Source: Methylococcaceae bacterium (lineage in GTDB: Bacteria; Pseudomonadota; Gammaproteobacteria; Methylococcales; Methylomonadaceae). Taken from it: 10,235 nt of DNA. How positions within the stretch are numbered: the stretch's first letter is position 1; every line of letters starts with the position of its first letter. The position numbers were made by a program, and so were the translations under genes. The stretch is from the NCBI GenBank assembly GCA_013140465.1, contig JABFST010000325.1, positions 1-10,235 of the forward strand. Reading direction: 5' to 3'. Positions 1,732 to 10,235 of this stretch are shown here, piece by piece. The notes under the pieces are model-generated. The model saw nothing but the letters and a program-made list of their open reading frames with translations, made no database searches and had not been told where the DNA came from.

Positions 1732-2562
1732 TTATTCGGGCTGGGATTTGACCATCCGCCACCAAAACCAGTCTTGGACATACAAATAGCGGCGTATCGG
1801 GGTTTTGACCATCAGCAATAACAAGCCGATGGAATACAAACACCACACTGCTGCCCATTCGTTAGGATTGGAGGTGGTCAAATACGCCAACAAAGGGCCG
1901 GTGATGATGTGGTATAGGGTCATGCGCCAAGAGCCATACAGCACAGGCATGACGAAAGCGGCGATGATGTACATATTATAGAGCATCAAACTGGTGGTGG
2001 CGGGAATTTCCCAGGCAATATGCCAAGCCCCAGAAACCGAACACACTTTTTTGCCGCAGATAGGGACAAAAAACGGTTTGATGTAGTCCGTAAAGACAAT
2101 GAAGCGGGTTTTGGCTTCGTAACAGAAAGTTGCGCCTTCGGTAGGAAACAGCCGCAACAATAGGCACACGGTCGCTATAAAGCACACGCTATAGACGAGG
2201 GGGGTAATTTTGGTTTTGATTCTAGCCGGGACAAAGTGCAAAGAAACGGCATTGATAAAAAACGGCTGGAAGGCAATATGGATATAACCCAGCAACGTTG
2301 CTATCTGGTTGGCGGGATTGCTGCACTCGTCTATGACCGTGTAAGTATAGGCTTGCAGCAGTTCCATCAAAGAGAAATAACCTAGGGCTGCACATAAAGC
2401 CGCAGGTTCTTTTTTATAGTAAAAATAAGCAGTACTTGATAAGCCGATAGTCGCCAATACCGCCGACGCTCGCTGCGAGACAGGAGTCGAGTAGTCCCCA
2501 GAAGCGATAGTGCATGTGTTTTCACGAAGCGTAGCGTAGTGAAAATGCAGGCTTTCCGACAT
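1732..2562 (-). CDS. DUF5765-like multi-pass membrane protein, N-terminus replaced by repeat sequence
   Basis: A hydrophobic protein with about seven predicted membrane segments, for example around AALCAALGYFSLMELLQAY, ATLLGYIHIAFQPFFINAV, ITPLVYSVCFIATVCLLL and AAVWCLYSIGLLLLMV. Function is unknown. I recognise the pattern YFSLMELLQA..Y..ID with a following IHIAFQPFFINA segment as the DUF5765 family, from memory. Family members as I recall them begin MCWS..AS directly before the first membrane helix. Here residues 1-31 of the ORF are instead encoded by a palindromic repeat (2470-2562), and family-like sequence begins at Ala32 (ASAVLATIG). The ATG at 2562 has no Shine-Dalgarno. The original start is at 2742, in the same frame but separated by a TGA at 2572-2574. 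The gene is therefore either a recent pseudogene or is translated by restart. It lies 24 bases upstream of dnaQ on the same strand. Confidence 0.72.
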   Translation of the reverse strand: MSESLHFHYATLRENTCTIASGDYSTPVSQRASAVLATIGLSSTAYFYYKKEPAALCAALGYFSLMELLQAYTYTVIDECSNPANQIATLLGYIHIAFQPFFINAVSLHFVPARIKTKITPLVYSVCFIATVCLLLRLFPTEGATFCYEAKTRFIVFTDYIKPFFVPICGKKVCSVSGAWHIAWEIPATTSLMLYNMYIIAAFVMPVLYGSWRMTLYHIITGPLLAYLTTSNPNEWAAVWCLYSIGLLLLMVKTPIRRYLYVQDWFWWRMVKSQPE

Positions 2563-2724
2563 CGCGTCGAGTCATTGCGTAACGATGTTGCATACCCCTT
2601 GTTGGGTATGCGACGAGTGGAGCAGGACGGCTGGGGCAGCCGTAGGCATTGGCGGTCGCGTGATTTTTGCCGCTTGTTGGGCAGGGATGCCCATAAAAGC
2701 TTTCGCAAAAATAGCGACTCCCCG
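2470..2724. mobile_element. 255-bp palindrome-rich insert splitting the DUF5765-like gene
   Basis: The sequence between the codons for MCWSGE (2725-2742) and ASAVL (2469 downward) is a chain of short inverted repeats. They include an 8-bp stem at 2663-2670/2705-2712 enclosing a 6-bp stem at 2678-2683/2688-2693, the latter around a GGGA loop. A 7-bp stem lies at 2627-2633/2637-2643 and an 8-bp perfect stem at 2590-2597/2604-2611. A 7-bp stem lies at 2519-2525/2539-2545, and CTCGctgCGAG lies at 2469-2479. Outside the first stem, GTCGC (2655-2659) and GCGAC (2714-2718) also pair. There is no transposase-like ORF, so it would be non-autonomous. A possible 4-bp target duplication is AGCG (leftward strand) at 2723-2726 and 2471-2474. 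The boundaries are inferred from where coding similarity stops and may be off by a few bases. Confidence 0.75.
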
Positions 2725-2742
2725 CTCCCCACTCCAACACAT
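2725..2742 (-). pseudogene. Orphaned 5' end of the DUF5765-like gene (original start)
   Basis: Six codons read leftward as ATG TGT TGG AGT GGG GAG, Met-Cys-Trp-Ser-Gly-Glu. This matches the conserved N-terminus I recall for the DUF5765 family, in which MCWS plus about two residues is followed by AS and a membrane helix. The continuation A-S-A-V-L is found 255 bases further on in the same frame. Reading on from Glu6 gives repeat-derived codons until the TGA at 2572-2574, so the present product from this start would be a peptide of about 56 residues. The intact gene originally spanned about 1732-2742. Confidence 0.75.
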
Positions 2743-2746
2743 AAAT

Positions 2747-2751
2747 CCCTC
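2747..2751 (-). promoter_or_regulatory. Ribosome binding site of the original start at 2742
   Basis: On the leftward strand GAGGG lies four bases before the ATG at 2742. Neither the ATG at 2562 nor its flank has anything comparable. This is the main reason for placing the ancestral start at 2742. Confidence 0.6.
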
Positions 2752-2988: not shown

Positions 2989-3061
2989 GGAGTACAACGG
3001 CTTTAGACCATTTCTTCGCGTAGTAATACTGACTCGGCAAGGTCTAAAGCCGTTGCACTCC
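2989..3061. repeat. Pair of 21-bp inverted repeats, MITE-like
   Basis: Arm 2989-3009 (GGAGTACAACGGCTTTAGACC) and arm 3041-3061 are inverted copies matching at 20 of 21 positions, separated by 31 bases. The only difference is at the sixth base from the outer end. A short ATCACGG (2969-2975) and CCGTGAT (3064-3070) also face each other outside the arms, at unequal distances. The unit lies about 85 bases beyond the 3' end of the receptor gene and could fold as its mRNA end, but the long arms look more like a dispersed repeat. Confidence 0.65.
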
Positions 3062-3146: not shown

Positions 3147-5402
3147 TTAGGCTTTGGGCAGGGTAAACACGCCTACAGAAGCCACCAACAAATCTGACAA
3201 GGTTACTAGCAACTCAGTTTGGGTGCCTTGATCCTGCAATTGGCTATAGGTTTCTTCGGTGCTTTTTTGGATTTGTTGGGCGCGTGTCAGCAAGCGTTGG
3301 GTGCTTTCTGATTGGTTGGTAGAACTGACTGCGATACGTTCAACCAATTGCACCAAGTTTGCCGTGGTGTCACGCGTTTCACGCATTTCGTCACCCGCTT
3401 GTTGCGCCAGCTCGGTACCCTTGACCACTTGGCTGATCGCGTTGTTCATCGTGATAACAGTATCAGCGGTTTCCACTTGGATGTTATTGACCAGCGCAGA
3501 GATTTTTGATGTTGCTTCGCGCGAGTTTTCAGCCAGCTTTTGTACCTCGCCCGCAACCACGGCAAAACCACGTCCGGCTTCACCCGCAGACGCGGCGTGC
3601 ATGGACGCGTTAATGGCCAGAATATGGGTACGCTCAGCAATGTCGTTAATCAAGCTAACCACACCGCCAATTTCTTGCGAGCGTTCGCCTAAGCGCTTAA
3701 TCCGTTTTTCGGTTTCGCGGATGGTGTCCCGAATCGTGGTGATGCCTTGGATGGTGCCTAATACCGTTTCTTGCGCCTTATCGGTGTTCTTAATCGCCTT
3801 TTCCGCCGCTTCGTTACAAGAAGCCGCCAAGTGGGCAATGTTTAACATCGCAGCAGACGCGGCAGTTAATTCGCTAGCGGCTTGCTCTACTTCGCGCTTT
3901 TCTTCCGCCGCCACATCAATAACCCGGGCTGACTGGCTTTGCACTTGTTGTGATGCGCCCGCCACCTCACCTGCAATCTGTACGACGCGGTTCAATACTT
4001 TTCCGGTTTCTTCCGAGAGCAAGTTTAACGCGTCCGACAGCGGCCCGGTCACGTCTTCTTCCACGTTGGCGCGTACCGTCAGATCTTTTTGCGCCAATTT
4101 TGCCACCGTCATCAACAATTCTACGATGGAGTTGTTCAAGACTTCGTTTTCTTGCTCAATTTTGGCCCGCACCGCCTCACGTTGGTCAACCATCGCGTCG
4201 AACTGGCGACCTAATAAGCCAATCTCGTCAAAAGTTTGCATTTGGGCACGCACGGTATTATCACCCGCAGACAGTTTTTGGATAACGCCTACCAAATAAC
4301 TGACCGGACGGGTAATGGAGTTGACGATAAACATGGCAATTAACGCAACCCCTAACAGCAAACTGACAATAACCGCTGAAATCAGCAATAATTTGTCTGT
4401 ACCCGACTTTATTTGTTGGTTAAAGATAGTGTCCAGTTCTTTTAAGCCGACATCGATTAATTTGAAAGTTTCATCAATGGCTTGGGTATATTGTTTGAAG
4501 TATTCGGTCGATGAATAGGTTGGGAAGGGCTTGCTGACAATTTCGGTATCCGATAGCTTTAGGGCAGTGTTAACCAAGTTTGACGTGGTTTTAAGCTGTA
4601 TATCGATGGGGGTTTGCAGTTTCTGGTTGATTTCCAAAAATTTGTTAAAGTCACGCGTCGCGTTGCTTAAATGTAAGTTCGCTATACTGGTCATCAAACT
4701 TAATCGTCCACGATCTTGCAGGGTGACTACGCTTTCTGGCACGGCGACGGTTTTGGCTTTACTGTCAACCACCACGGGCTTTGCCGCTTTCGCCAATAAG
4801 GTCGCACCCCAACCCCGCGCTTGGCCTAGGTATTCAGTCAATATTGGCGTATCCACCAACATTGAACGCATCAAATAATAAGATTCTGAATAAGGGTCTA
4901 ATGACAAGCCATAATGGTCAGTAATTAAATCCAAAACCTCTAACACATTGGCGATCAATTTGGTATGTGCGGCAAAGTTTTCTTGGGCGGTTATTGATCG
5001 CGCATCCACATTCTGGACTATCTTAGGCCAATCTTGTTTAATGCTCGCCCAGAGCTTTTGTAATCCCGGGTTGCTGATGGACTTGATGGTGGTATCAAAC
5101 AGCATTATTTGCTTGTCGGCCAAGGTTTTGCTGTCCTGCACTTCGGCAACCATTGCCATATTGCCGTTTAACAGCGCACTCGACGAACCCCGATGTTTGG
5201 GCAACAAGCGCACTAACTCCAAGATTTGTTTGGCAGGTTTAAGACCTTGCTGCTCCAGCTTGGTCACATTGATTTTTTCCAACTGGGTATCCACAAACGC
5301 GTACAAGGCAAAACCGACTAGCGTCGCTGCAATCACCGCCAACACAGCGAATTTCTGCCGCAACATTAGTCGGCTAAACGGATTAATAGTTTGTTGTTTC
5401 AT
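3147..5402 (-). CDS. pilJ: Methyl-accepting chemotaxis receptor, PilJ-like
   Basis: A 751-residue inner-membrane receptor that would control the CheA-like kinase encoded just upstream. Membrane helix 1 is at about 14-38 and helix 2 at about 337-362. The periplasmic part between them (about 300 residues) is predicted all-helical. It contains LPKHRGSSSALLNGN (about 67-81), which recalls the nitrate/nitrite-sensing (NIT) or PilJ N-terminal type. A HAMP domain follows TM2 from about 363 (NSITRPVSYL), and a second HAMP-like segment is at about 425-478. The cytoplasmic coiled coil runs from about 480 to 720. Its hairpin tip at about 588-625 is ERTHILAINASMHAASAGEAGRGFAVVAGEV, a variant of the standard QTNILALNAAVEAARAGE...VVADEV. 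There is no CheR-binding pentapeptide at the C-terminus (FTLPKA). The ATG at 5402 is 67 bases after the kinase stop, preceded by only a weak AGAG. The symbol is assigned by cluster context and is less certain than the family. Confidence 0.85.
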   Translation of the reverse strand: MKQQTINPFSRLMLRQKFAVLAVIAATLVGFALYAFVDTQLEKINVTKLEQQGLKPAKQILELVRLLPKHRGSSSALLNGNMAMVAEVQDSKTLADKQIMLFDTTIKSISNPGLQKLWASIKQDWPKIVQNVDARSITAQENFAAHTKLIANVLEVLDLITDHYGLSLDPYSESYYLMRSMLVDTPILTEYLGQARGWGATLLAKAAKPVVVDSKAKTVAVPESVVTLQDRGRLSLMTSIANLHLSNATRDFNKFLEINQKLQTPIDIQLKTTSNLVNTALKLSDTEIVSKPFPTYSSTEYFKQYTQAIDETFKLIDVGLKELDTIFNQQIKSGTDKLLLISAVIVSLLLGVALIAMFIVNSITRPVSYLVGVIQKLSAGDNTVRAQMQTFDEIGLLGRQFDAMVDQREAVRAKIEQENEVLNNSIVELLMTVAKLAQKDLTVRANVEEDVTGPLSDALNLLSEETGKVLNRVVQIAGEVAGASQQVQSQSARVIDVAAEEKREVEQAASELTAASAAMLNIAHLAASCNEAAEKAIKNTDKAQETVLGTIQGITTIRDTIRETEKRIKRLGERSQEIGGVVSLINDIAERTHILAINASMHAASAGEAGRGFAVVAGEVQKLAENSREATSKISALVNNIQVETADTVITMNNAISQVVKGTELAQQAGDEMRETRDTTANLVQLVERIAVSSTNQSESTQRLLTRAQQIQKSTEETYSQLQDQGTQTELLVTLSDLLVASVGVFTLPKA

Positions 5403-5469
5403 GATGCGATCTCTGGTTGATAAAAGGTAAAGCAGTAATTATATTTTTGGCTTGGGGCTAAGTTGGCTG

Positions 5470-8400
5470 CTAAGGGGTGGCTGTCGCCAACAAACCCTGA
5501 ATTTTGCCCAATAAGTCGTCTTCTTGCACGGGCTTGACCAGGTAAAAATCGATCCCCGCTTCCAAGGCCAACTGGCGGTGCGCTTGGGTCGTGCGCGAGG
5601 TAATCATAATCACCGGCAAGGTTTTAAGATTTTCACGCGTGCGGATGTGGGCGGTAAGCTCAATCCCGTTCATACGCGGCATTTCCAAGTCGGTCAGCAC
5701 AATATCTGGCTTAAAGTCTGCCAATTGTTCAGTCGCTTCAATGCCGTCGCGCGCTGTCCTAACCGCAAAGCCCGCATCTTGCAATAGTTGCTCTAAGGCA
5801 CGGCGTTGGCTGAGCGAATCATCCACCAACAGCACGGTCGGCAAGCGGGTTTCAGGCAGCCATTCCTCGGCTAACTCGGTGTAGGTCACGGCATCAGCAT
5901 ATTGTCTACGCAGCAATTCGGGCAAATCCACGACCGCCGCCACTGTGCCGTCGCCCATGATGGCAGCCCCGGCAAATCCAGGAATTTTATTGACGTACTG
6001 ACCCAAGCTTTTGATGACGATATCCAAACTGTCGGTAATCGCGTCAATCAGGACGGCAGTGGTTTGTTCGTCGTGTTGCACCAACAGTACTGTGCGGTAG
6101 TAGAGTTCACGTTTGCGGCGTTCAGGAATGCGCAGCAAACGGCTTAAAGGTACGGCCTCATAGCGTTCATCAGCCAACAGCACAAATTGTCCTTGGTCAT
6201 CATCAAGAATAGTCGCCGCCCCTGCAAACAAAATTTGCGTGACGCCTTTATTGGCTATCGCCACTTTGTAAGTGCCCACTTGCGTCAATAAGGCATGGAC
6301 GCGGCTCATGGGCAAAGGCACTCTTAAGTCTACGCTGAGTCCGAGTCCCGGCACCGAATCTAAGGCTAAGCTGCCGCCTAGCCCAACAACTTGGTAATGC
6401 ACGGCATCCATACCGACACCCCGCCCTGAGGTTTGGGTAGCGACGGTGCGGGTCGAAAAATTTGGGCGCAATATGTAGCGCGCCAAGTCTTTATCGCTGA
6501 GGTTTTGTCCTGAATCCAGCAAACCGCGCCGTATCGCCGTGTCGCGGATGGCCGCAAAATCCAAACCGCGCCCATCATCTTGCACGCGCACGCGGATGTG
6601 GTTACCGTCTAGCTCGAAGTGTAAGGCGAGCGTGCCATGCGGGTTTTTACCCGCCGCCAGCCGCTGTTCGGCGGTTTCTATACCGTGGTCTACGGCATTA
6701 CGCAACAAGTGCATTAACGGGTCTAGCAAGCTATTTAGCGTGTCGCCGTTGACCATAAGATGGTCGCCAGTCAAGACTAAATCGCATTGTTTTTGGGTGA
6801 GCCTACAGGTTTGCCGTAAACTGCGCTGCAAGCGTTGGGCTATCGACGACACGGGCAGCAAACGCGTTTGCATCATCACCGCTTGGGTTTCATTACCGAT
6901 ACGTTGCTGGTCTTCCAGCACCTCGTTCATGGCCTCCAGTTCTTTGCTGGCATCCTTACTGATTTCGCGGGCATCAAACGCCGCTTCCACCATGCGTCGG
7001 CTGGCGGTGTGCAATTCGTTATACTGATCCATTTCCAAGGCATCAAAATCGGCTTGGCCTTTGCCCGACGCTTGCCCAGTCAAATCTTTTAGGTCCACCA
7101 ATTGTTCCAGCTCATCACCCAACTGCCGCAGCAGCTCAATCTGTGCTTCCATCGCACGCAGTTGCGCCCTGATGCGGCGCAAACGTTCGTTGGCTTGGCT
7201 GTTAAGGATGACGTTTTCATCGGCTAGCTTAAATAAATCATCCAGCTGTGCGCTGGCGACGCGCACCGATGAACTAGCGGCTATCGGTTCGTCGGTGTTT
7301 GGTAGTGCAGGTTCGGGCGGTATGCTGCCCACTTGATCGTTAGGTTCAAGCAGTGCGGCTACACCGACCTGCTCTATCTGGTTAGCCCAATCCAAAACGC
7401 TTTGTAACACCAGCAACGCATCTTCTGGCGGTGGGCTAAAGCCTGTCAGCGATTCCCCCATGACTGCCAAACAATCTGCCGCATCCATTAACACGGACAA
7501 TAAGGCATAACCCGGCAATTGCTGTGCGCTGGCAAACGCCAACAGTATATCTTCCAGCTGATGGGTCAGTTCGGCGATGCCTTTAATGCCGACGGTATTG
7601 GCAGCGCCTTTTACTGTGTGGGCAACGCGTTGGGCTATTTCAAGGTCGGCTAAGCTGCCACCTGTTTGTAAGCGTTGGATAGCCGAGGAAAATTCTTGGA
7701 TCTGTAGCGGCAGTTCATGCAAGAGTATATCCAGCAACTCTGGATTGACATCCTCGGGCAAGGTCAAATCTATATCGTTTAGGGTCGCGGTTTGTTTGCG
7801 GATTTCAGGCTCGGGTTCATGCAGGTTGGCATCGGTGGCCTTAAAGTGCGCCATGATAAGGCCCGCATCTTCTAGGGTGACAGGCAACAGCCAGCTGTCC
7901 GCACCTAATATCGCAAGTAAAGGCAAACCTGCTTGGCTATCACTGACCGCCGCCAAATAGGCAATAGTTTCGCTGATCCAGGTTTGCAACAAGACTTGGT
8001 GTTCGGCACTAAAAACGCCAATATTGGCATGAAAGCGTTCAATATTGGCCAGTACTTGTTCACAAACCAAGGCCAAGCCAGTAAAACCAGCCATATTGGC
8101 GGCACTGATATAACGCTCCAACTCCTCGCCGATGTTTTCCAAATCTGCCGCCAATGCGTCGGTTTGGCCTAAAGGTAAAGCATCGATCAAGCCACTGATG
8201 TAACGCGCTTGGGTGTCCAATAACGCCACCAATTCCAAACTGGCTTTTGATAACACAGGGTTAGGGCTAATCACAACCTTCTCTGGGGTATCGGCTAGAG
8301 CAGGTTCGTCAGGCGCGTCGGCTATTATCTCTATGCCGTCGGATAAGGCCGTCATGTCGGTGTTGAGCTGTTCGGCCAGCAACAATAACTCATCATCGGC

Positions 8401-8673
8401 CAAAATAACCTGCAATACGGGATGCTGCAAAATATCAAATATACCCGCGATGCTGAGTCGGTCGCCCAGTCGATAATCCTTATACACTTGCGGCAAACCT
8501 ACCAACAGTGCCTGTAATTCGCTTGTTAAGCCCTCTGCGGGCAAGGCCGCCAAAGCCTCGCCGATCAACAGGCACGCATCTTGGAAACCATAGCAACCGT
8601 CTTCGGCGGCATTATCGGCTAATGCGGCAAGCACTGCGGCTATATCATCTGATGTCGGGGGCAAGTCGGTCAT
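5470..8673 (-). CDS. Hybrid CheA-type histidine kinase with C-terminal receiver, ChpA/PilL-like
   Basis: Cytoplasmic kinase that autophosphorylates on its Hpt histidine and passes phosphate to receivers. The domains in this 1067-residue protein are in order. Residues 1-290 are helical and Hpt/FimL-like without an obvious phospho-histidine. A canonical Hpt domain at about 305-400 has HTVKGAANTVG with His352. A linker and dimerisation helices occupy about 470-620. The ATPase has the N box HLLRNAVDHG at about 655-664, a G1-like DDGRGLD at 699-705, and F/G2 NFSTRTVATQTSGRGVGMDAV at about 738-758. A CheW-like domain is at about 790-925, and the receiver at about 945-1064 has Asp951/Asp952, phospho-acceptor Asp995, Thr1025/Ser1026 and Lys1047. 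It is far shorter than Pseudomonas ChpA (about 2,470 residues with many Hpt-like domains). The ATG overlaps the TGA of the CheW gene as ATGA and has AGGAA upstream, indicating translational coupling. Confidence 0.9.
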   Translation of the reverse strand: MTDLPPTSDDIAAVLAALADNAAEDGCYGFQDACLLIGEALAALPAEGLTSELQALLVGLPQVYKDYRLGDRLSIAGIFDILQHPVLQVILADDELLLLAEQLNTDMTALSDGIEIIADAPDEPALADTPEKVVISPNPVLSKASLELVALLDTQARYISGLIDALPLGQTDALAADLENIGEELERYISAANMAGFTGLALVCEQVLANIERFHANIGVFSAEHQVLLQTWISETIAYLAAVSDSQAGLPLLAILGADSWLLPVTLEDAGLIMAHFKATDANLHEPEPEIRKQTATLNDIDLTLPEDVNPELLDILLHELPLQIQEFSSAIQRLQTGGSLADLEIAQRVAHTVKGAANTVGIKGIAELTHQLEDILLAFASAQQLPGYALLSVLMDAADCLAVMGESLTGFSPPPEDALLVLQSVLDWANQIEQVGVAALLEPNDQVGSIPPEPALPNTDEPIAASSSVRVASAQLDDLFKLADENVILNSQANERLRRIRAQLRAMEAQIELLRQLGDELEQLVDLKDLTGQASGKGQADFDALEMDQYNELHTASRRMVEAAFDAREISKDASKELEAMNEVLEDQQRIGNETQAVMMQTRLLPVSSIAQRLQRSLRQTCRLTQKQCDLVLTGDHLMVNGDTLNSLLDPLMHLLRNAVDHGIETAEQRLAAGKNPHGTLALHFELDGNHIRVRVQDDGRGLDFAAIRDTAIRRGLLDSGQNLSDKDLARYILRPNFSTRTVATQTSGRGVGMDAVHYQVVGLGGSLALDSVPGLGLSVDLRVPLPMSRVHALLTQVGTYKVAIANKGVTQILFAGAATILDDDQGQFVLLADERYEAVPLSRLLRIPERRKRELYYRTVLLVQHDEQTTAVLIDAITDSLDIVIKSLGQYVNKIPGFAGAAIMGDGTVAAVVDLPELLRRQYADAVTYTELAEEWLPETRLPTVLLVDDSLSQRRALEQLLQDAGFAVRTARDGIEATEQLADFKPDIVLTDLEMPRMNGIELTAHIRTRENLKTLPVIMITSRTTQAHRQLALEAGIDFYLVKPVQEDDLLGKIQGLLATATP

Positions 8674-9161
8674 GATACGGTTTCCTGACGGGATTGGTGC
8701 TGGCCTAAGGTGCGGAACAGGCTGTCAAACTGCGCCTTCAGCCATATTTCGCCATGATATGAATAACATTGCGCCACAAAGGGCAGCAAGGCCGGGGGCA
8801 AGGTTTCTACAGGAGGAATAGGTACAAAAGACTGAGCCTGTTCCGATAATAATTGCGGATAACCATCAATCCAAACTGCCATCGTCTTGTCACCCCGCCC
8901 TATCGTGAACAAACGTCGTTCCTTGGTAGCCAAAGTGCCCATGCCTAACCATAAGTGCAAATCGATAACGGGGACTATCAGTCCCCTGACATTCAACAAG
9001 CCGCTTAACCAAGGCTCAACATTGGGGATAGGGTTGACGTGCAAGCGTTCCAGCACTTCGCAATGGATGCTGACGGGCAAAATAAAGCCCCATGCACCCA
9101 CGCGAAAGCCTAAAACACTGTCCGCCAAGGGTTCAGTGTTGGTGACGGCATTGGCATTCAT
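8670..9161 (-). CDS. pilI: CheW-like adaptor protein, PilI-like
   Basis: Scaffold protein that links the receptor tip to the CheA-type kinase in the signalling array. The 163 residues contain the CheW core signature LSGLLNVRGLIVPVIDLHLWLG (about 53-74), preceded by a strand pair (VLGFRVGAWGFILPVSI) typical of the fold. The remainder, including AVWIDGYPQLLS, fits the second beta-barrel. The ATG at 9161 has AGGGGA five bases upstream. The gene begins 9 bases after the PilH-like stop, and its TGA overlaps the kinase ATG. Assignment to PilI rather than another CheW rests on the neighbouring PilH/PilG-like receivers. Confidence 0.85.
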   Translation of the reverse strand: MNANAVTNTEPLADSVLGFRVGAWGFILPVSIHCEVLERLHVNPIPNVEPWLSGLLNVRGLIVPVIDLHLWLGMGTLATKERRLFTIGRGDKTMAVWIDGYPQLLSEQAQSFVPIPPVETLPPALLPFVAQCYSYHGEIWLKAQFDSLFRTLGQHQSRQETVS

Positions 9162-9170
9162 CGGTGTCCC

Positions 9171-9536
9171 CTAGTTGAGTGACGACAAGACAGCGGTGAT
9201 TTCAACAGCCTCGTAGGGTTTGGCAATCAGGCTTTTGGCGCCTTGCATCTGCGCCCACACGCGGTCTGCTTTTTGATGTTTGGAACTGACAAAAATAATG
9301 GGGATGGCTTTGGTTTCAGGGTCATCGCGCAAGGCGCGGCAAGCGGCATATCCGTCTATGCCCGGCATCACGATGTCCAAGAAAATAACATCGGGTTTCT
9401 CCGATTTGGCTTTTTGTATCGCCTCTGCGCCATCATTAGCCGTCAATAAGATACATTGGGTATCTTTAAGGGCATTTTTTAGATTAGCTAAATCCGTTTG
9501 AGAATCATCGCAGATTAATATTTTGTGAATAGTCAT
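9171..9536 (-). CDS. pilH: Single-domain response regulator, PilH-like
   Basis: Stand-alone CheY-type receiver, probably a phosphate acceptor from the kinase of this cluster. From the chosen ATG it is 121 residues, the length I recall for Pseudomonas PilH. The acidic pair is in ILICDDSQTD, the phospho-acceptor Asp in VIFLDIVMPGIDGY, the switch Ser in IIFVSSK and the Lys in LIAKPY. RVWAQMQGAKSLIAKP resembles PilH (KVWGKRQGARDYLTKP in Pseudomonas, from memory). The frame stays open upstream to a TTG at 9590, with another ATG at 9578. The ATG at 9534-9536 (MTIHKILICDD) is preferred because it starts the domain as in homologues, although its Shine-Dalgarno is poor. No output domain is present. 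It is followed after 9 bases by the CheW-like gene. Confidence 0.85.
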   Translation of the reverse strand: MTIHKILICDDSQTDLANLKNALKDTQCILLTANDGAEAIQKAKSEKPDVIFLDIVMPGIDGYAACRALRDDPETKAIPIIFVSSKHQKADRVWAQMQGAKSLIAKPYEAVEITAVLSSLN

Positions 9537-9678
9537 GGTGGTTGTCTTTATTATGGGCTCGCCAGCCTTGTTAAGCATAACTGGCGGCAATAGGTTGATG
9601 ATGCCCTACGGTTAGCCTTATAGGCCCTACACAAAAGGCCAATAACGCATAAGACCCCCGCAGGGCTTAAAGTAAATC

Positions 9679-9697
9679 AGCCTGTCTACGATAGGCT
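9679..9697. repeat. Stem-loop in the pilG-pilH gap
   Basis: AGCCTGTC (9679-9686) pairs with GATAGGCT (9690-9697) with one G-T position and a three-base loop. It is followed rightward by TTTATT, so it has terminator form only on the rightward strand, where no gene ends. Leftward, it lies in the 221-base gap between the two receiver genes. Its role is unclear. Confidence 0.4.
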
Positions 9698-9728
9698 TTT
9701 ATTGTGTAACAGTTGTGACGCTCAAGCA

Positions 9729-9749
9729 GGGCAAGCAACCGTGTTGCCC
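9729..9749 (-). terminator. Stem-loop directly after the pilG-like gene
   Basis: GGGCAA (9729-9734) and TTGCCC (9744-9749) pair around a nine-base loop. An alternative inner pairing GCAAC/GTTGC uses part of the same bases. It begins 8 bases beyond the TAA of the PilG-like gene on the leftward strand. There is no T-run, so if it acts it may cause partial termination or stabilise the mRNA end. It would separate the first receiver gene from the rest of the cluster. Confidence 0.4.
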
Positions 9750-9757
9750 AAAGGCGT

Positions 9758-10235
9758 TTAAGAACGCGCGGTCAGCCATGCCAATACCCTTAGGCTTAGC
9801 TTTTGGAACGCCTCTTCTTGAACGGGCTTAGTCAAATAAGTGGTACACCCAGCCATAATGCCTTTCACTTCATCCATAGGCGAGGTTTTGCCGGACACCA
9901 TAATAATCGGGGTTTTTTTGTACGCCGGATTTTTGCGCAATTGGGTGCAGGTTTCATAGCCATCCATCCCCGGCATCATCACATCCAAAAATATCAGGTG
10001 GTAGGTATTGTTAGCCGCCATCGCCAAAGCCGCCTCGCCACTTTCGGCAAAATCAACGCCGCCGATTTGTTCCAAGGCTTCCAGCTTTAATTGCAAGGAT
10101 TTTTGTATCGCCAAGCTATCATCCACGACCAATGCGCGGTAGCGTAAAGGCTCAGGGGTAGGCGCAGCCACAGGCGTGGGAATAACGACCACGGGTGCTG
10201 GCGCAGGAGCAGCGACTAATACCTCAGGCTCGGGT
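9758..10235 (-). CDS. Response regulator receiver protein with Pro/Ala-rich N-terminal linker, PilG-like (5' end outside window)
   Basis: The C-terminal part is a CheY-like receiver with the acidic pair in ALVVDDSLAIQ, phospho-acceptor Asp in LIFLDVMMPGMDGY, switch Ser in IIMVSGKTS and Lys in YLTKPV. It ends soon after the domain, so no DNA-binding output follows it. The GTG at 10192 is not convincing as a start, because the frame stays open to the window edge and encodes more of the same Pro/Ala/Val-rich linker (PEPEVLVAAPAPAP and on). The protein is therefore longer than a stand-alone PilG (about 135 residues), and something, perhaps a second domain, lies upstream. Context with the PilH-like receiver suggests a PilG role in pilus extension control. 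A fusion to an unrelated N-terminal domain is equally possible. The gene is on the leftward strand, first of the visible cluster. Confidence 0.8.
   Translation of the reverse strand, partial: PEPEVLVAAPAPAPVVVIPTPVAAPTPEPLRYRALVVDDSLAIQKSLQLKLEALEQIGGVDFAESGEAALAMAANNTYHLIFLDVMMPGMDGYETCTQLRKNPAYKKTPIIMVSGKTSPMDEVKGIMAGCTTYLTKPVQEEAFQKLSLRVLAWLTARS

Follow-up and report, generated by a model that had tools for sequence, protein, structure and literature searches.

The question raised by this locus is what separates the first codons of a DUF5765 membrane-protein gene of a Methylococcales methanotroph from the rest of its reading frame, how the separating DNA came to lie there, and what has moved it. 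The window, i.e., the whole stretch of DNA analysed (contig G000:C272, 10,235 bases), comes from a 3.6-Mb genome in 507 contigs (assembly 83% complete), and protein comparison placed the nearest named homologues of its DUF5765 gene in Methylococcales. The answer that we favour, at a probability of about 0.85, is that the 255-bp stretch lying in codon 6 is a non-autonomous mobile repeat, inserted there probably recently, which inserts exactly, without target duplication, beside a CNNN tetranucleotide, and which has one hairpin end (Table 1). Elsewhere in the window, the chemosensory-pili-like cluster contains, next to the genes listed in the table, what we take by eye to be a CheW-like ORF and two receiver-like ORFs; an imperfect 22-base palindrome (82%) at 2749–2800, immediately upstream of the DUF5765 start, is possibly a regulatory element, and a perfect 15-base inverted repeat, AGACCTGCGAGGTTT, with a 3-base loop, is located at 2886–2918 between DUF5765 and the next gene.

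Table 1 Features of the split DUF5765 gene, the inserted repeat and their surroundings (positions in the window)
Feature	Position	Strand	Basis or remark
DUF5765 gene, remainder (from codon 6, base 3, through the stop at 1732)	1732..2470	-	Pfam match and identity to P0001
Flanking tetranucleotide CGCT beside the CGCTG end of the repeat (CNNN type)	2467..2470	+	C at that place in 74/76 copies of other genomes
Mobile palindromic repeat, 255 bp, type A, GCGGGGAGTCGC... to ...CTGTCTCGCAGCG	2471..2725	-	100% identical second copy
ATG within the repeat, possible restart	2560..2562	-	9 nt past the TGA, in frame with the gene remainder
In-frame TGA within the repeat, codon 57 from the ATG at 2742	2572..2574	-	Translation
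Conserved long hairpin at one repeat end: GTCGC/GCGAC, ATTTTTGC/GCAAAAAT, apical stems	2647..2725	-	Covariation count
DUF5765 gene, first 17 nt (codons 1–5 and two bases of codon 6)	2726..2742	-	Orthologue N-termini
Original DUF5765 start ATG	2742-2740	-	Encodes MCWSGE; read from the sequence
Shine-Dalgarno-like GAGGG of the original start	2747..2751	-	Four bases before the ATG; read from the sequence
Chemosensory-pili-like cluster	3147-10192	-	MCP and large CheA-like histidine kinase with Hpt and receiver domains (Pfam)

An earlier note on this DNA had claimed that a palindromic repeat splits the gene behind a leftward ATG preceded by GAGGG and encoding MCWSGE, and both the start as read there and the anatomy proved real. 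The sequence 3′ of the insert, ASAVLATIGLSS... (ASAVLATIGL), is in frame with MCWSGE and runs to the stop, and Pfam DUF5765 (PF19069) matched this remainder with an E value of 1.8e-35 and 121.4 bits against a cut-off of 25. Orthologue loci were fetched in 30 cases, and 28 of them were readable, those set aside being the window itself and L039, which begins at a contig edge inside the gene; in all 28, the N-terminus MCWSGEAS[AT]VLA is free of any insert, codons 6 and 7 read GAA GCN, and the 255 bp is absent, so a native coding origin of the stretch was rejected. MCWSGEAS was likewise present in 16/16 proteins compared (in one behind an N-terminal extension), in agreement with the beginning MCWS..AS that the earlier note gives for DUF5765 proteins. 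The alignment with homologues proposed in the earlier note therefore came out as it had expected: no relative among these loci carries the 255 bp as conserved coding sequence and no homologue lacks MCWS, the two outcomes that it had named as speaking against it.

The best homologue, P0001 (a protein record only, from a 972-bp metagenome contig), is an uninterrupted protein of 251 aa, 96% identical to that of the window, and the window gene minus the insert is 756 nt, i.e., 251 codons plus stop, which is the same length. From this length and the GAA of the orthologues, the insert is placed within codon 6 (GA|A), with no arginine codon there before. Its length had been given correctly as 255 bp, and its position, 2471–2725 rather than 2470–2724 after codon 6, had been one base off; the additional R postulated in MCWSGE(R)ASAVL was dropped. 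DUF5765 relatives were found at E 1e-5 in 184 of 201 family genomes, own genome included, where, within the 83% complete assembly, there was no second intact orthologue, only relatives of 52% and 30% identity. The name DUF5765 had no mention in the literature searched, a body with most subscription journals outside its scope.

The boundaries of the repeat were set by the block common to both copies in its own genome, together with the GAA codon of the orthologues. Searching that genome with 2460–2745 returned G000:C137:1599-1853, identical to the insert in 255/255 bases (100%) and with unrelated flanks, and a third match that is a 25-base end piece (C162:108-132), so the full copies number only two. 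The second copy (L004:1599-1853) sits where an RND-type membrane-fusion gene ends and an RND-type pump gene begins; 12 loci were scanned for comparison, own locus included, and in the four relatives with a readable tail 2–5 bases separate the first gene's stop from the ATG of its neighbour. Among the DNA compared, there was no empty counterpart for either of the two copies. Since an unrelated site has the same 255 bases without a difference and the 245 codons past the junction form an open frame with 96% identity to P0001, the insertion into the DUF5765 gene looks recent, and probably is; the earlier supposition of a recent entry between otherwise undamaged halves is in keeping with this. As minus-strand RNA, 2460–2745 folded better than 200/200 dinucleotide shuffles (z = −3.92). 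A known structured RNA was rejected, since Rfam gave 0 matches at gathering score in the window, the 255 bp included, and the lone match in 2430–2780, with an E value of 2.5, was taken as chance.

The repeat belongs to a family 255–295 bp in length, present in many copies and carrying no transposase gene. The 255-bp query matched 21 of the 35 genomes of the genus, own genome included, at E 1e-3, many of these matches being partial and diverged, and a one-end pattern matched at least 120 stretches of public genomes. Among the 80 matches listed, 78 are named as methanotrophs or mussel gill symbionts (Bathymodiolus symbionts, Methylovulum, Methylobacter, Crenothrix, Methylomonas, Methyloglobulus, Methyloprofundus and others), all of which we take to belong to Methylococcales; the other two, L192 and L218, come from bins labelled Sphingobacteriaceae and Legionella and are perhaps misbinned methanotroph contigs, cases of transfer or, for the short L218 match, chance. 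As for carriage by phages or plasmids, the repeat occurred in 0 phage records and in 2 plasmid records, both of methanotrophs. Literature searches, with most subscription journals outside their scope, returned no paper describing this family.

Two kinds of 3′ end were distinguished, type A (...CTGTCTCGCAGCG, as in the window) and type B (...TGATTTTCAGCG), with CAGCG terminal in both. As regards terminal inverted repeats, type A carries GGAGTCG at positions 5–11 and CGACTCC at positions 237–243 of 255, and the type B end, in a consensus judged by eye, has no CGACTCC counterpart. From 106 copies sorted, 25 with no recognised 3′ end were dropped, and 78 of the remaining 81 are shorter than 330 bp. 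The 77 copies above 200 bp, 66 of type B and 11 of type A and most of them from one or two mussel-symbiont genomes, entered the frame and length, frame-restoration and flank tests, for which 64, 68 and 76, respectively, were usable. The mussel symbionts contribute 56 copies of 295 bp with a mean identity of 99.0% to their consensus, so the family has lately been active there. Genic copies are in modest shortage: frames of at least 100 codons span 34/64 insertions versus 421/640 random points, and frames of at least 250 codons span 11/64 versus 186/640.

Several copies have themselves been altered. A second repeat family of the mussel symbiont (AGGCGCGCCATGC...GCTGACAGCG) sits inside first-family copies in L204 and L247, the CAGCG end being common to both families, and the stretch inserted in the repeat in L254 is a different sequence from this second family. 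In L010 and L085, the normal 3′ end of the repeat is replaced by another sequence, GAACCGTGC.TACGG, which in our estimation resembles a group II intron end, so that group II introns may enter the repeat of this family.

The mode of insertion was read from filled and empty sites. An empty counterpart, defined by at least 95% identity and 60 bp on each side, was available among the DNA fetched for 26 of the 72 copies with enough flank that were taken into this comparison, and 25 of the 26 showed a gap of exactly 0 and one a gap of 8. All 26 are from the Bathymodiolus japonicus symbiont, the counterparts are mostly further members of multi-copy sequences rather than alleles of one locus, and the 25 are counted as copies, whether or not they are independent events. 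A looser list of counterparts also contains, among the matches listed, some gaps of −1, mainly at one copy in L234. Target duplication was seen in 0/76 copies at 4, 5 and 6 nt; flank identity at 3 nt occurred in 3/76 versus 1.24 expected, and at 2 nt in 2/76 versus 6.0 expected. Excision at the exact ends restored frames of at least 200 codons in 18/68 copies, and shifting it by +1, +2, −1 and −2 did so in 2, 5, 4 and 2 of 68.

The target is one-sided and short. Read on the strand opposite to the CAGCG end, the tetranucleotide that precedes the junction there consists of C (74/76), not G (74/76), any base, and not G (74/76), and no long target consensus was seen in the 76 flanks; at type A ends within the genus, the first of these four bases is C in 21/24, own two included. 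The target in the window is CGCT, with G at the second position, where 74 of 76 others have none, so the not-G rule at this position is not strict. At its other end, the repeat itself has a similar tetranucleotide, with C, C (75/77), any base, and not G (75/77), or C-[CT]-N-H in most copies, the leading C being fixed by the search pattern.

At the opposite extremity from CAGCG, the first ~80 bases of the repeat form the hairpin. In 27 diverse copies, 82.3% of the alignment cells were paired versus 42–51% when the structure was slid, and cells changed on both sides numbered 25, where shuffles gave 11.4 and sliding no more than 14; the structure was defined manually on the hairpin of the window copy, and this count leans towards it, a bias on which the slid controls bear. 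Pairs with two-sided change (6 versus 6.3 shuffled) and further pair types (16 versus 16.7) were not above the shuffles. The 27 rows of this alignment (A1) are 29 diverse starts minus L025, L190 at 3530 and L212, plus the window copy, and RNAalifold gave only 4 pairs for this end, with no covariation, owing to indels. Folded as DNA, the hairpin end reached z = −2.62 and −3.58 against shuffles versus −0.10 and −0.17 for the opposite end, which has no strong DNA hairpin.

Insertion without target duplication, a short one-sided target, a hairpin and, at the element's far end, a tetranucleotide resembling the target are features of the Y1 transposases of the IS200/IS605 type. The repeat is thus rather likely to be moved in trans, by single-strand cut-and-paste, by such a Y1 (HUH) transposase. 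In this mechanism, the enzyme would recognise the end hairpin, would cut 3′ of the CNNN at one flank and 3′ of the similar tetranucleotide belonging to the other end of the repeat, and would join the cut repeat to a new CNNN site. Within the genus, genomes with a strong copy had a Y1 match in 15/15 cases, own genome included, versus 11/20 of the others (Fisher p = 0.004), where strong means E below 1e-25, a cut-off set afterwards, and where the strong-copy genomes are also larger (3.8 versus 2.7 Mb), which confounds the association. Copies are located near Y1 genes in G012 and G026, and 9 of 30 Y1 loci contain whole or partial copies, which, judged by position only, are read as neighbours by density or as copies interrupting the Y1 gene; in L319 and L323 the Y1 match is a partial one starting some 30 bp away from the copy, an arrangement that an interruption of the gene by the copy would produce. 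In L140:1630-1979, a truncated repeat copy is followed by an IS200-like remnant.

The own genome also has a RAYT-like gene (G000:C267), which was rejected as the obvious partner: it is flanked on both sides by a different repeat, with an array on one side, and the surrounding 4.3 kb contains no ends of the 255-bp repeat at up to 4 mismatches. A palindrome in the window at 2989–3061, GGAGTACAACGGCTTTAGAC..., belongs to this flanking REP family, which has 260 sites in the genome at no more than 1 mismatch (0 for the reversed-pattern control) and which, together with the RAYT-like gene, looks like a REPIN/RAYT system.

A different enzyme that leaves no duplication, e.g., a DEDD or serine recombinase, is a possible but clearly less likely mobiliser. 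It would accord with the outcome of the search for a parent, in which the Y1 loci fetched (from 35 genus genomes and 4 others, a part of the Y1 matches) yielded no Y1 element with the same ends, and with a second end devoid of a strong hairpin. That search, however, covered Y1 only, no long target consensus was seen, and a one-sided four-base target matched by the element's own other end, combined with a hairpin end, is what the repeat presents, in common with HUH Y1 systems like IS608 and ISDra2. Rather improbable, too, is the wider proposal that the family, spread across Methylococcales and expanded in the mussel symbionts, is moved by a transposase of unrecognised type with a target of little beyond the C four bases before the junction, which would co-mobilise types A and B and the unrelated CAGCG-ended second family. 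Mobilisation by a Y1 transposase in trans is retained here as the preferred reading.

As to the protein, we infer that the insert either inactivates the gene or causes the first residues to be replaced by 31 repeat-encoded ones through a restart at the ATG at 2562. The in-frame TGA, which the earlier note had passed over, acts as a stop for translation from the original ATG, and the ORF from 2562 begins with 30 and two-thirds repeat-derived codons, so the earlier count of 31 such residues stands, while the verdict that this start must be a mis-annotation goes too far, as it could be in use now. A stronger version, in which the repeat is tolerated as coding sequence, like the Rickettsia palindromic elements, and gives a working protein with a repeat-derived N-terminus, appears rather improbable. 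It draws on the length of 255, a multiple of three, on the position of the internal ATG in the right frame just past the TGA, on the intact 245 codons downstream of the repeat, and on the 2/6 frames open in the window repeat versus 0.34 in shuffles (2 being reached by 4.4% of them); the second copy, moreover, leaves the frame of the membrane-fusion gene, to which it is antisense, open through 85 codons before a stop. Against it, the frame used in the window copy contains a stop, the ATG at 2562 has no clear Shine-Dalgarno upstream as read from the sequence, and MCWSGEAS is found in every orthologue read. Elsewhere, lengths divisible by three occur in only 4/77 copies, so the family is not kept in frame, and a frame-keeping element was rejected on the repeat lengths and stop counts.

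An assembly artefact, joining the repeat between unrelated flanks, is very improbable: the assembly is in 507 contigs and several contigs of relatives terminate inside the repeat, but here the flanks belong to one gene, whose halves join with no base lost or gained, and those of the second copy are neighbouring genes in all four readable relatives. Removal of the repeat from the mRNA as a small intron is least probable of all, since, although the insertion is exact and duplication-free, the repeat region folds strongly and joining its ends restores reading frames, the 30 copies in frames of at least 150 codons are 15 sense and 15 antisense, where an intron would be sense, and the second copy of the own genome is antisense, so that splicing is unlikely. 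The reading as an inserted non-autonomous mobile repeat is therefore kept.

Among known systems, the IS200/IS605-derived non-autonomous elements (palindrome-associated transposable elements) are characterised by the absence of target duplication, a short one-sided target, a hairpin end and no transposase gene, all of which the repeat shares; it differs from them in that the Y1 loci fetched yielded no tnpA-bearing relative that has its ends and in that its second end is without a strong hairpin. REPINs and REP sequences are palindromic, multi-copy and thought to be moved by RAYT transposases, relatives of Y1 (PMC3116915, PMC3733652). The present repeat is likewise palindromic and multi-copy, and GGAG precedes its end hairpin, but it is longer (255–295 bp), is not composed of two inverted copies of one REP, is often inside frames, and is not beside the own RAYT-like gene, which has its own REP family. 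The Rickettsia palindromic elements (PMC10969869) are palindromic repeats inside protein-coding genes, as is the window copy, from which they differ in that the present family is not kept in frame and the window copy has a stop codon. The CGTC-tagged REPs are 20–40-bp hairpins with a CGTC tag for which a dedicated transposase is not known (PMC3733652); they resemble the present family as a mobile-looking palindromic family with no known dedicated transposase, and are many times shorter. Compared with a classical MITE, the repeat is a short multi-copy element lacking a transposase gene, and it lacks the target-site duplication.

Events of this kind, in which a small non-autonomous mobile repeat inserts, are ordinary, and one lesson of the present one is that gene starts can fall inside mobile repeats, as the obvious ORF start does here. 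The point of interest left is the missing mobiliser; what moves the CGTC repeats is left open in PMC3733652. The site described here shows cleanly, and probably soon after the event, a gene with such a repeat inside it, and in a mussel symbiont this family offers filled and empty sites by the dozen, so that together they make a good system for finding the mover of orphan palindromic repeats.
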